From Rossellomorea aquimaris (GTDB lineage Bacteria; Bacillota; Bacilli; Bacillales; Bacillaceae_B), in contig NZ_VTEX01000001.1 in the NCBI RefSeq assembly GCF_008180865.1, positions 1,389,809 through 1,453,808 of the forward strand: 64,000 nucleotides of DNA, given 5' to 3'. Shown one piece after another: positions 294 through 53,006 of the stretch. Positions within the stretch are counted from its first letter, which is position 1. Each line of letters begins with the position of its first letter. The translations under genes and the position numbers were made by a program. The notes under the pieces were generated by a model. It did no database searches. It saw only the letters and a list, made by a program, of their open reading frames with translations, and was not told where the DNA came from.

Positions 294-545
294 GTTGATT
301 CTCGCTGCAGGATGCTCGACTCCTGTGGGAATAGCTGGACAGTACGAAAAGCGGAGGGGCTTTGCCCAGGGGCGACAAGCATAAGACGAGTCTGCCGGAA
401 AGGCGCTCTTTGCCTTTTTGGCAGACTTGGCTTATGACCTCGAGCCCCTAAGCCCCGTAGCTAGACAGGTGAGACCCCGGAGGCGCAGCCGAGGAGGCTC
501 ACCGCCAGCCCCGCGGAAAGCGAGCATCCTGGAGCGGAAATCAAC
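294..545. repeat. Composite intergenic repeat (outer element)
   Basis: Outer arms are inverted: GTTGATT and CAGGATGCTCG on the left match CGAGCATCCTG and AATCAAC on the right. The interior has CTCCTGTGGGAATAGCTGGA on the left and a GGTGAGACCCCGGAGGCGCA segment on the right. A 126-bp unit separates the two halves at AGCTGGAC (333-340) and AGCTAGAC (459-466). From general familiarity with Bacillaceae genomes, the outer element alone is a common dispersed repeat. No gene is present in it. Confidence 0.7.
333..466. repeat. Single 126-bp structured repeat unit
   Basis: The interval between AGCTGGAC at 333 and AGCTAGAC at 459 is exactly 126 bp, the same period as the array at 51411-51950. The unit folds as one long hairpin: GGGGCTT/AAGCCCC, AGGGGC/GCCCCT, CATAAG/CTTATG, GTCTGCC/GGCAGAC and AAAGGC/GCCTTT. 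The near-identical 8-9 bp boundaries resemble a target duplication or a recombination joint. Confidence 0.8.
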
Positions 546-47746: not shown

Positions 47747-47770
47747 ATTTCATATAGGTAGGTGAAAACA

Positions 47771-48097
47771 ATGGAACTTATTGAACAAGTGGGTAGAAGG
47801 ATTCAAGAGATCAGGAAGATTAGGGGGATGAGTCAAGATGAACTTGGAGATAAACTAGGAGTTACCAGAAGTTTCATTTCCAAATTAGAGAACGGAAAGA
47901 AAAAAATTAGTTTAGAACATGTAGAGAATATCGCTAAAATTTTACACATTGAACCGACAGACTTATTAGTAGATAAGACAGAGTTGATCAAAAATTATGA
48001 TGATTTAGTAATATTAAGAGAAAAATTTACCAAAGAAGAAATAGAAAATATGGTTAGATACTCCAAAATGCTTATAGAACTTGATAAAAATGAGTAA
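47771..48097 (+). CDS. Immunity repressor, Cro/CI-type HTH
   Basis: 108 aa. IRKIRGMSQDELGDKLGVTRSFISKLENGKKKISLEHVENIAKILHIEPTDLLVDK is HTH_3; the C-terminal helices (KNYDDLVILREKFTKEEIENMVRYSKML) likely dimerise. It lacks an S24 autoproteolysis domain and no ImmA-type protease is next to it, so induction is probably not LexA-like. ATG at 47771 with AGGTG 6 bases before it. Confidence 0.87.
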   Translation: MELIEQVGRRIQEIRKIRGMSQDELGDKLGVTRSFISKLENGKKKISLEHVENIAKILHIEPTDLLVDKTELIKNYDDLVILREKFTKEEIENMVRYSKMLIELDKNE

Positions 48098-48131
48098 ACA
48101 AGGTGAATAAAGCCTTATAAAAGTCGCTTTT

Positions 48132-48147
48132 TGTCGAAATAAGCCAC
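48132..48147 (+). promoter_or_regulatory. Spo0A-box-like repeated motif
   Basis: TGTCGAAATAAGCCAC. TGTCGAA is the 0A-box core. The same 14-16 bases recur in reverse orientation at 26497-26512 and 30514-30528. This copy lies between the repressor and integrase genes. Confidence 0.45.
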
Positions 48148-48254
48148 TATGAAATAGCTCCCCTTTATGGAAAACTTGTACTATAATGGGTATAACAATT
48201 AGAACAGGTGTTCGTTTTTTGTCGGTATTTCTTTTTAAAGGGGAGTCAACAACT

Positions 48255-48392
48255 ATGAGGAAAATAATGCTAGTACCAGAATTACCAAAAACCTTCATCT
48301 ACCTTACTGAAACTCATGAAATTAGAGGGACAGGCGAGACAATAGATAAGAAGGTGATGGATAGTGAAAGGTTACATTCGAAAAAGAGGTAA
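48255..48392 (+). CDS. Small protein upstream of integrase, 45 aa
   Basis: MRKIMLVPELPKTFIYLTET then HEIRGTGETIDKKVMDSERL. GGGGAGT upstream. Overlaps the integrase start by 29 bp. Possibly a translational coupler or regulator; unknown. Confidence 0.5.
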   Translation: MRKIMLVPELPKTFIYLTETHEIRGTGETIDKKVMDSERLHSKKR

Positions 48393-49506
48393 GGTTTATT
48401 CATTTACAGTAGATATAGGAAAGGACCCGATAACTGGCAAGAGAAAACAGAAGACCAGATCAGGTTTTAAGACTAAAAAAGAAGCACAGGCAGCACTGGC
48501 AGAATTAATAAACAAGGTAGAAAAAGGAGAAAGCGTAGATTTCCGTAAAACGTTATTCAAAGAATTTGCGATTGAATACTTTGAAAAAAATTACGTGAAT
48601 AAGATAAAAGCATCTTCTTACGACCGTTTGACTTATGTATTGCATAAACAAATATTGCCTTATTTCAAAGATGTATCCATTACGGAATTAGATCAGTTTG
48701 TCATTCACGACTTTTACAATGTTAAATTAAAAGAAGGTTACTCAACCAATTACATTATGAGAATGCACGAGATTATCCGAATGTTGTTGAGGGTGGCTAA
48801 AAAATGGGAGCTAATAAAAAAAGATGTAGCATCCATGATAGAACCACCAAAAAACAAACGCAAAGAGATGAAAATTTGGTCAATAGAACAAGTTAATGAA
48901 TTCCTTAATTTTTGTTCTCACTCCCGTTACCACCCCATATTCTTCCTTGCTGCTTATACAGGTATGAGAAAAGGCGAGATGTTGGCTTTAACGTGGGAAG
49001 ATATAGACTTCGACCAAAATGTCATTGATGTCAATAAAACTCTCTACAAGTTAACTGACGGATATCTGGTGGACGTCCCGAAAAGTTCTTCTTCGATAAG
49101 GAGTATTTATTTCGATGAAGAAATCGAAAGGGTGTTAAAGAAGCAGAGGTTAAGGCAAAAAGAAGAAAAATTGAAGAATAGTCGCGTATACGATGATAAA
49201 AACTTAGTGTTCGCACAAGAAGACGGTAGGTTCGTACCGCCCTCAGCAGCGAACGTTGTCCTTAATAACTTCATAAGGCAGTCTGGTTTACCTAAGATAC
49301 GTTTTCATGATCTAAGGCACACTCACGCTACTATCTTACTACAAATGGGTGTCAATCCGAAAGTGGTAAGCGAAAGATTAGGTCACTCATCAATCCAGAT
49401 CACCTTAGATGTATACTCTCACGTTACAAAAGAAATTAAACAAGATATATCTAAGGATTTCTCAAATATGATGAAAAGTGGTCAGAATGTGGTCAGCGTA
49501 GACTAG
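48364..49506 (+). CDS. int: Tyrosine-recombinase integrase
   Basis: 380 aa. N-terminal arm-binding AP2-like domain (KGYIRKRGKVYSFTVDIGKDPITGKRKQKTRSGFKTKKEAQAAL), core-binding SAM-like domain (60-160), catalytic domain with R202 (TGMRKGE), H315-x-x-R318 (HDLRHTHAT), H341 (RLGHSS) and Y351 (DVYSHV). A Tn916/phage-type two-arm integrase that recombines the 14-bp yppG core. GTG start with AAAGG upstream. Its last codons contain two arm-type repeats. Confidence 0.95.
   Translation: MKGYIRKRGKVYSFTVDIGKDPITGKRKQKTRSGFKTKKEAQAALAELINKVEKGESVDFRKTLFKEFAIEYFEKNYVNKIKASSYDRLTYVLHKQILPYFKDVSITELDQFVIHDFYNVKLKEGYSTNYIMRMHEIIRMLLRVAKKWELIKKDVASMIEPPKNKRKEMKIWSIEQVNEFLNFCSHSRYHPIFFLAAYTGMRKGEMLALTWEDIDFDQNVIDVNKTLYKLTDGYLVDVPKSSSSIRSIYFDEEIERVLKKQRLRQKEEKLKNSRVYDDKNLVFAQEDGRFVPPSAANVVLNNFIRQSGLPKIRFHDLRHTHATILLQMGVNPKVVSERLGHSSIQITLDVYSHVTKEIKQDISKDFSNMMKSGQNVVSVD
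49477..49495. promoter_or_regulatory. Integrase arm-type repeats at the right end
   Basis: AGTGGTCA (49477) and TGTGGTCA (49488), 11 bp apart, inside the 3' end of int and about 65-80 bp from the attR core. Same motif and spacing as near attL. Confidence 0.6.
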
Positions 49507-51299: not shown

Positions 51300-51410
51300 A
51301 TGAAAAATCAGAAAAACAAACAAAACAAACAGCAAGCAACAAATTCAGCCCAAACCAAAGCCTCAAAAGGCAACCCTAAACTAGAAGGCGAAAACCGTCC
51401 ATCGACATAA
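51300..51410 (+). CDS. sspM: Minor small acid-soluble spore protein SspM
   Basis: 36 aa: MKNQKNKQNKQQATNSAQTK then ASKGNPKLEGENRPST. The ending (G-x-NRPST) and Lys/Gln-rich start match B. subtilis SspM, also encoded between yppE and yppC. Expected to be forespore-specific (SigG). ATG at 51300 preceded by GTGGAGGTG. The stop codon is the last base before the repeat array. Confidence 0.85.
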   Translation: MKNQKNKQNKQQATNSAQTKASKGNPKLEGENRPST

Positions 51411-51950
51411 GAAAGCGGAGGCGGCTCGTTCAGACCCGACAAGCATAAGGCGAACCACCCGGAAAGGCGCTCTTTGCCTTTTTGGGTGGTTTGACTTATG
51501 ACCTCGAGGGTCTAGCCGCTGTAGCTGGACTAATAAGATAGCGGAAGGGCTTTGCCCAGAGGCGACAAGCATAAGGCGAGAACAACGGAAAGGCGCTCTT
51601 TGCCTTTGTGGTGTTCTTGACTTATGACCTCGAGCCTCTAAGCCCTGTAGCTGGACTAATAAGAAAGCGGAGGCGGCTCGTTCAGACCCGACAAGCATAA
51701 GGCGAACCACCCGGAAAGGCGCTCTTTGCCTTTTTGGGTGGTTTGACTTATGACCTCGAGGGTCTAGCCGCCGTAGCTGGACTAATAAGATAGCGGAAGG
51801 GCTTTGCCCAGAGGCGACAAGCATAAGGCGAGAACAACGGAAATGCGCTCTTTGCCTTTGTGGTGTTCTTGACTTATGACCTCGAGCCTCTAAGCCCTGT
51901 AGCTGGACTAATAAGAAAGCGAGGGGCGGCTCGTTCAGACCCGTCAAGCA
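51411..51950. repeat. Tandem array of 126-bp structured units (A-B-A-B-partial A)
   Basis: Unit starts are 51411, 51537, 51663, 51789 and 51915, exactly 126 bp apart. Odd units (A) and even units (B) differ; A1 and A2 differ at about one base, as do B1 and B2, so the 252-bp dimer duplicated recently. Units start AAAGCGG or ATAGCGG and end GTAGCTGGACTAATAAG. Each folds as a long hairpin with constant CATAAG/CTTATG and AAAGGC/GCCTTT stems; the other stems differ between A, B and the copy at 333-466 but remain paired. The fifth unit is truncated after about 36 bp. Confidence 0.92.
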
Positions 51951-51974
51951 TGACAAGAAGAGACCAACACCACT

Positions 51975-53006
51975 TTAGAGTGTTGGTCTCTTCTTCTTTC
52001 TCTTCCAGATCTTTTTTAAACCCTCTTTTACATTCGCCAACTTCTCAAGCTGCCTTTGCTTATGAAAAAACCACTTTGTTAATTCGATTCCATGAGGGAG
52101 TCCCTGCTCTTTGTACCAATCTTTATTTATTTTCTTTTTAATCGACCAGTCCGAATGAGACTCCCAATGATGTGGAACTACGTCATAAGCTTGATGGAGC
52201 ATTGGCGTATTCGTTTTGGGGAATCCCTTACAATACTGTTCGTAGTCTCTTCTGGATCCTGTATGCTCTACTTGTAAAGCAAAGTACAAAAAGGAGGAAT
52301 GATAATCCGGATGAAATAAAATCGTAAATAATTCATTTCCTAAAAGAATTCTGTTTTCTATTTTTCTGAAGCCATGGACACTCGCACCTAAAAGTTCCCC
52401 CGTTAATGTCGGAAATAAAACGGAGCTGAAATGAAGATGATCTTCAATATAGAATAGAGATGAACCAAACACCCTCTTCTTATATACCTCATGTTCAATG
52501 ACTGGTTCTTGAATGAGGTGCTGCTCATTTATTATAAGAGAATGGACTAATCTGAAATCATCCCTCTCCTCCCAGTGACGATTCCACTCTTCTTCCATGA
52601 AGCTTGAAATATGAAATTCTTTAAACAAATGAAACATTTTCTTCTTATACCTCGTCGAATAATGATAGAGAAGGAGTTGAGGAAAGGCATCCTGAAAAAT
52701 GCTCCAGTTCGCTCTTTCATACGTTTTGAATAGATCATCACGGGTAGCCGGATGTAAAAGGCGAGTAAAGATATCACCTTTAAGATCAGTCATATTCCAG
52801 CCGGCATTTCTTGATACCATCGAAGCCAGGAAAGACCATTTTATTTCAGGATGAAGAAGGTAAAATTTTTGATAAGCCATCGTTCTTGATATATTATCTT
52901 GATTATGCAGATTCACTAGATGGTTGATTTCATTAATCCACTCATTTGTACGTTTAGGTTCAGGTATATAGGGTAAAAAGCGATAAGTATTGCTCATTTC
53001 ATCCAT
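51975..53006 (-). CDS. yppC: YppC family protein (DUF2515)
   Basis: 343 aa. NTYRFLPYIPEPKRTNEWINEINHLVNLHNQDNISRTMAYQKFYLLHPEIKWSFLASMVSRNAGWNMTDL and later LFPTLTGELLGASVHGF are YppC/DUF2515 hallmarks. Unknown function. ATG at 53004-53006 has AAGG/GGGGGAT upstream; a longer frame is possible. Divergent from recU. Confidence 0.85.
   Translation of the reverse strand: MDEMSNTYRFLPYIPEPKRTNEWINEINHLVNLHNQDNISRTMAYQKFYLLHPEIKWSFLASMVSRNAGWNMTDLKGDIFTRLLHPATRDDLFKTYERANWSIFQDAFPQLLLYHYSTRYKKKMFHLFKEFHISSFMEEEWNRHWEERDDFRLVHSLIINEQHLIQEPVIEHEVYKKRVFGSSLFYIEDHLHFSSVLFPTLTGELLGASVHGFRKIENRILLGNELFTILFHPDYHSSFLYFALQVEHTGSRRDYEQYCKGFPKTNTPMLHQAYDVVPHHWESHSDWSIKKKINKDWYKEQGLPHGIELTKWFFHKQRQLEKLANVKEGLKKIWKRKKKRPTL

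Follow-up and report, generated by a model that had tools for sequence, protein, structure and literature searches.

A large family of tandem hairpin repeats at gene ends in Bacilli, probably spread as a non-autonomous mobile element

We analyzed a 64,000-nucleotide stretch of the Rossellomorea aquimaris genome (contig NZ_VTEX01000001.1, positions 1,389,809 to 1,453,808; hereafter the window), which carries a tandem array of ~118-nt hairpin units behind a small open reading frame (ORF). These units belong to what is apparently a very large and unnamed hairpin family, which occurs in the majority of the genera sampled from one order of Bacilli. The units are probably copies of a non-autonomous mobile hairpin that behaves like repetitive extragenic palindromes (REPs) or miniature inverted-repeat transposable elements (MITEs); it would insert next to the hairpins of terminators and build up arrays in head-to-tail order. 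The family occurs in at least 78 genera, reaches ~100 or more copies per genome, and shows very clear pairing covariation, yet it is absent from Rfam.

Results

Each unit folds into one long hairpin interrupted by internal loops. In a sequence-based alignment of 50 units from the R. aquimaris genome, 95.7% of cells are paired, and both partners have changed in 28 of 41 pairs. Covariation scores 0.382 in this alignment and 0.126 in shuffled ones (0 of 500 shuffles reached the observed level on any measure), and the signal is abolished when the pairing partners are slid against each other. Among 93 units of distant genomes, two-sided changes occur in 38 of 41 pairs, in an alignment that was fitted to a model and is hence biased towards it. 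The units are related copies, and these counts are not of independent events. Entire stems are replaced in some units (loci L034, L022, and L012) with pairing kept, while the loop sequences, GACAAG/ACCTCGA and an apical YTCTT, are conserved. The fold is strongly constrained. Furthermore, nearly all wobble pairs are G.U on the plus strand: 184 G.U versus 8 A.C in the R. aquimaris units, and 223 versus 38 in the distant ones. Thus, it is the plus strand alone that selection sees, be it RNA or single-stranded DNA.

A reading of the window from its sequence alone (the sequence-only reading) had proposed a structured RNA or mobile hairpin family at this locus, and the strong covariation over many genomic copies, which shuffles never reach, bears this out. 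All of the stem changes that it listed across unit types are present in the sequence. The stems that it called invariant are a partial exception: CATAAG/CTTATG is constant within the window and carries compensated changes elsewhere (e.g., CATTTC/GAAATG in L034).

The family is widespread. A DNA search of the R. aquimaris genome returned at least 101 matches in ~40 clusters, mostly in tandem at 124- to 127-nt spacing. A covariance-model search of Bacillaceae genomes had been proposed in the sequence-only reading; using a model (R1) built from 50 R. aquimaris units, we find matches in 35 of the 36 genomes of the genus, with 33 to more than 100 units per genome. Across the order, R1 has matches in 208 of 299 genomes, which represent 78 of 116 genera, with unit numbers per genome recorded only up to “at least 12.” Beyond the order, matches are nearly restricted to one more family of the class (f49). 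Pairing is therefore conserved well beyond this locus, at the level of genus, order, and f49. In a simpler pattern scan, the matches listed came only from Rossellomorea and related Bacillus-labelled contigs. One complete relative (G007) has 112 units in 66 arrays, of which 41 are single and 25 hold two to five units. One plasmid-type replicon with units was found, a 690-kb replicon of Cytobacillus spongiae.

One member of the genus (G014) has zero units by R1 search. Its neighbours in a gene tree carry units, which suggests that the absence represents a loss. Separately, three genomes of genus g11 (G045, G090, and G153) have one high-scoring unit each, perhaps a conserved domesticated copy.

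A comparison with Rfam, also proposed earlier, yielded no family like the unit: there was no match at the gathering threshold, and at E <= 10 only chance-level matches. Literature searches by sequence and key words found no paper on this family, within a coverage that leaves out many journals.

In the window, the array follows a small host ORF of 36 amino acids ending in GENRPST (51300-51410, plus strand). The first unit starts at 51412, with the TAA stop codon of the ORF (51408-51410) 1 nt before it, and the flank at the end of the ORF is preserved in ~25 sister genomes. Four full units, all on the plus strand and scored here by cmsearch, follow at 126-nt spacing in the order A-B-A-B: A1 (51412-51529, 135.0 bits), B1 (51538-51655, 122.9 bits), A2 (51664-51781, 137.7 bits), and B2 (51790-51907, 115.5 bits). 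The 8-nt linker CTAATAAG lies behind A1 (51530-51537, plus strand), resembles the left flank ACATAAG, and recurs on the same strand at 51656-51663, 51782-51789, and 51908-51915. A fifth unit is truncated to its 5' part (first 36 nt; 51916-51951, plus strand). The array points at a bidirectional intrinsic terminator, AAGAAGAGACCAACACC...GGTGTTGGTCTCTTCTT (51956-52000), which was identified by terminator scoring. A single unit (348-465, plus strand; 134.9 bits) lies inside another dispersed repeat, recognized from intact copies of that host repeat.

TRF and cmsearch thus recover the four tandem units, the truncated fifth, and the single unit near 348 at the coordinates at which the sequence-only reading had placed them. 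TRF reports the array (51407-51951) with a period of 126 (4.1 copies) and a period of 252 (2.2 copies, 98% matches), the latter supporting a recent 252-bp duplication. A 191-aa ORF that spans the array on the minus strand (51381-51956) arises merely because the 126-nt period equals 42 codons.

Orthologous sites are empty or variably filled in sister species, which shows the mobility suggested earlier. Across sister genomes the window site holds from zero to five units: five plus a partial unit in L168, one plus a partial unit in L165 and L166, a partial unit alone in L164 and L167, and no unit trace in L174, L175, L176, L182, L183, and L185. Clean empty-site comparisons, between species at ~93% identity, were obtained for L020 (GTGGTAAACG joined to AAAAGAGGCTGCC in L201 and L202), L037 (TTTTAAAACC joined to ATAAAAAACAGG in L219 and L220), and L017 (GACTAAAAC joined to AAAAAGAGAAAAGG in L197 and L198). 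At these clean empty sites, the insertion point is immediately 5' of the terminator A-tract. Further empty or differently filled sites include L015, L011, L016, and L039, for a total of ~10 loci besides the window, and a single orthologous site can vary from 0 to 6 copies between close species.

The linkers resemble the end of the flank to the left of their own array, matching it at 249 of 366 positions, against 164.7 +/- 7.9 when shuffled (0 of 5000 shuffles reached this level). They are 5 to 10 nt long across sites, and the right end of the array is in many cases incomplete.

Units have also entered another dispersed repeat. The unit at 348 splits a repeat whose intact copies read GGGAATAGCTGGACAG joined to GTGAGACC (L014, L043, and L158). 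It is preceded by TAGCTGGACAG, which is similar to the unit's own right end, with the usual 8-nt linker. A second unit is nested in the host repeat in a different genome (L090), and L241, in which this host sequence continues behind a unit, is a possible third nested case. The host, a second dispersed repeat (GGATGCTCGACTCCTGCGGG...CCCCGCGGAAAGCGAGCATCCTG; window 304-540, L014, L043, L063, L158, and L090), twice hosts a unit.

In two other genera (G147 and G220; L292-L307), the units are single and are followed by a conserved AT-rich arm of ~58 nt, which abuts the terminator A-tract and often carries a DnaA-box-like TTATCCACA as well as TATAATTTCCTTAACAA. Unit and arm together may represent a fuller form of the element.

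The position of the arrays relative to genes was examined at 39 distinct sites of the R. aquimaris genome, with gene ends called by a simple ORF caller. At 17 of the 39, a same-strand gene lies on the left, and in 13 of these 17 the array begins 1 to 7 nt past its stop codon, against 11% expected for distances of <=10 nt (P = 7e-10). The same rule holds at 8 of 11 sites in f49 and 6 of 8 in other genera of the order; in the pooled sites, it holds at 33 of 48 (~11% expected). A fourteenth same-strand site in R. aquimaris lies behind a tRNA gene, where the distance of 156 nt given by the ORF caller was misleading: in two species, an array sits a few nucleotides behind a tRNA-Gln gene (L035, 2454-2525; L122, 5717-5788). 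This weakens the stop codon itself as the target, and the gene end or the terminator is therefore favoured.

Another 17 of the 39 sites are antisense, between two minus-strand genes and beyond a terminator. No antisense array lies close behind a stop codon, save for two zero distances that we take as ORF artefacts. An intrinsic terminator was detected within 160 nt of the array in the right flank at 31 of 39 sites, in the left flank at 3 of 39, and in 58 of 150 random intergenic stretches. Sense and antisense groups are alike in this respect, with the array directed towards an intrinsic terminator.

Searches for a partner enzyme covered Y1 and group II reverse transcriptase scans. RAYT-like HUH genes occur in most carriers; RAYT was nevertheless rejected as a linked partner, being unlinked and apparently not needed for unit retention. 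Group II reverse transcriptase is absent from seven unit-rich Rossellomorea genomes and was rejected as the partner because many carriers do not have it. Phage was rejected as a vehicle, as no unit match was found in phages and viral contigs. Replication-strand bias is weak and not significant (40:26, P = 0.11; 66 arrays in G007).

Other features were seen along the way. In several Rossellomorea genomes (L253, L262, L263, and L266), a RAYT-like gene adjoins an hpf-like gene for a ribosome hibernation factor. In the window, genes for a tyrosine integrase and a Cro/C1-type regulator (47762-49506), ~2 kb to the left of the array, probably mark where a prophage or an element of similar kind ends, and positions 5-124 hold a MITE-like palindrome whose inverted ends are long (GATGGTGAGGGGAACTG...CAGTTCCCCTCACCATC).

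Discussion

The positions at stop codons and terminators, the flank-copying linkers, and the extent of the family go beyond what the sequence-only reading had seen. We propose that each unit is a copy of one ~118-nt non-autonomous element, the plus strand of which forms the long hairpin with conserved internal loops that the covariation and the one-strand wobbles show. The element would insert next to an intrinsic terminator hairpin and point towards it; position and orientation are observed, and recognition of the terminator itself is what they suggest. Copies are seen in two settings: in sense orientation, separating the 3' end of a gene from its terminator, and in antisense orientation to two neighbouring genes, past the terminator of the first and ahead of the start region of the second. 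A right end with its linker would rebuild a left-like junction, and later copies would thus stack head to tail, a route that we infer from the likeness of linker and flank. Arrays gain and lose units between sister species, probably via recombination or slippage between the direct repeats. The proposal assumes a trans-acting enzyme that reads the folded single strand. A sense array would be transcribed within the 3' untranslated region (UTR) of the mRNA and, by analogy with E. coli REPs near stop codons, may alter translation or mRNA decay.

Several observations weigh against this proposal. At extra sites in the genus, the stop-codon rule is weaker, holding at only 3 of 8. The terminator detector is a home-made heuristic, and terminators are expected at gene ends in any case; we thus hold the orientation rule with more confidence than the idea of the terminator as target. 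Many sites are common to several species, so present-day transposition may be rare. The frequent truncated unit at the right end of arrays is unaccounted for. Finally, the Y1/RAYT and group II reverse transcriptase scans found no mobilizing enzyme: no unit lies within ~1.5 kb of Y1/RAYT genes (24 loci), the unit-free G014 also has RAYT-like genes, and some genomes rich in units gave no detectable Y1 gene.

These last points also bear on a possible, though doubtful, derivation of the family from IS200/IS605- or RAYT-type (HUH) elements, in which a Y1 transposase would insert single-stranded unit DNA behind a target resembling the right end, with no net target duplication. Such a derivation would fit the similarity of linker to left flank, the fold on one strand only, the presence of RAYT-like genes, and the nested unit at 348, which follows a mimic of its own right end. 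It sits poorly with the distance of units from every RAYT gene checked, with RAYT genes in G014 and unit-rich genomes that have no detectable Y1 genes, and with a replication-strand bias that is not clear (40:26).

It is rather unlikely that the hairpins are chiefly cis-acting RNA regulators of the 3' UTR, held at stop codons by host selection for translation tuning, mRNA protection, or decay, with mobility a minor matter. The sense arrays 1 to 7 nt past stop codons would be explained, as would the conserved loops and the fact that the sense strand is the folding one, and E. coli REPs that lie no more than 15 nt from a stop codon are reported to have an effect (PMC12306157). However, ~17 of the 39 sites are antisense between minus-strand genes, one array lies behind a tRNA gene, one unit lies within another repeat, and copy number at a single site ranges from 0 to 6 between close species.

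We give little credence to retroposition of a minus-strand RNA ending in CCGCUUUU, with template jumping producing the arrays and leaving the last unit truncated at its 5' side. The precise left end, the often truncated right end, and the head-to-tail arrangement of unlike units are in its favor. Against it, the strand that folds is at odds with the end that is truncated, and the wobbles do not fit a minus strand; moreover, group II reverse transcriptase is absent from the seven unit-rich genomes, and linkers reproduce the local flank rather than the donor. Least probable of all is that replication slippage at hairpins made local tandem repeats without transposition: sites common to species with differing copy number and the A-B-A-B duplication would fit, but not the at least 101 matches over ~40 clusters in one genome and 66 arrays in G007, the clean empty sites, the unit inserted into another repeat, or the strand-specific G.U bias.

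A mobile hairpin inserting beside terminators therefore remains our preferred explanation. A bolder version, which we offer tentatively, is that the family represents a large undescribed mobile class that locates intrinsic terminators via a folded single strand (RNA or DNA), each copy rebuilding its target so that arrays arise. Throughout Bacilli, the 3' UTRs of dozens of genes per genome would then carry one to several conserved hairpins, a layer of structure that spans the genome and changes fast. Since the family sits in the 3' UTRs of many genes, it can influence how genomes are assembled, how genes are annotated, and what expression data show. The variable occupancy of orthologous sites provides natural experiments on the effect of a 3'-UTR hairpin, and with it one can test how REP-like repeats of bacteria locate gene ends.

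We class the family as a dispersed mobile hairpin repeat, and it can be set beside several known systems. REPs are 20- to 40-bp palindromes, tagged GTAG or CGTC and associated with RAYTs (PMC3733652). In E. coli, 260 of 496 REPs lie within 15 nt of a stop codon by one count, and they are reported to stall ribosomes (PMC12306157). Like REPs and bacterial interspersed mosaic elements, the units are dispersed, high-copy extragenic hairpins that are clustered and in many cases lie just past stop codons. Unlike REPs, which are short, often alternate in orientation, and often sit beside a RAYT gene, the units are 118 nt long, have conserved internal loops, stand strictly head to tail, and do not lie beside RAYT genes. 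Of the two REP tags, GTAG is seen close to the 3' foot of only a minority of the units, where GGAG is more frequent.

Among structured repeats of Bacillus-group genomes, bcr1 is 147 to 167 bp long and is described as having mobile element traits and reported as specific to the B. cereus group; the Bhal-1 stem-loop repeat is 74 bp long, with 36 copies (PMC2267715). Both resemble the present family by description, as dispersed structured repeats. MITEs of DDE transposons have terminal inverted repeats and a target duplication of fixed length. In the present units, the outer stem makes the ends imperfect inverted repeats, but the whole unit is one palindrome. Linkers copy the end of the left flank, yet they vary in length from 5 to 10 nt, and many arrays are cut short at their right end.

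Two further systems share parts of the proposed behavior. Group IIC introns insert beside intrinsic terminators; they have a ribozyme and usually encode a reverse transcriptase. The units share the insertion site but have neither ribozyme nor encoded reverse transcriptase, and many carriers have no group II reverse transcriptase. In IS200/IS605 elements and their non-autonomous derivatives, one folded strand matters, and insertion occurs behind a target that resembles the element end, without target duplication. The units likewise have one strand that matters, and insertion of this kind would fit the nested unit at 348 and L037, with other sites less clear. They differ in that the target is locus-specific rather than one fixed tetranucleotide, and in having no linked partner transposase. 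Overall, the family behaves as a REP or a MITE but departs from REPs in its length and in its lack of linkage to RAYT genes.
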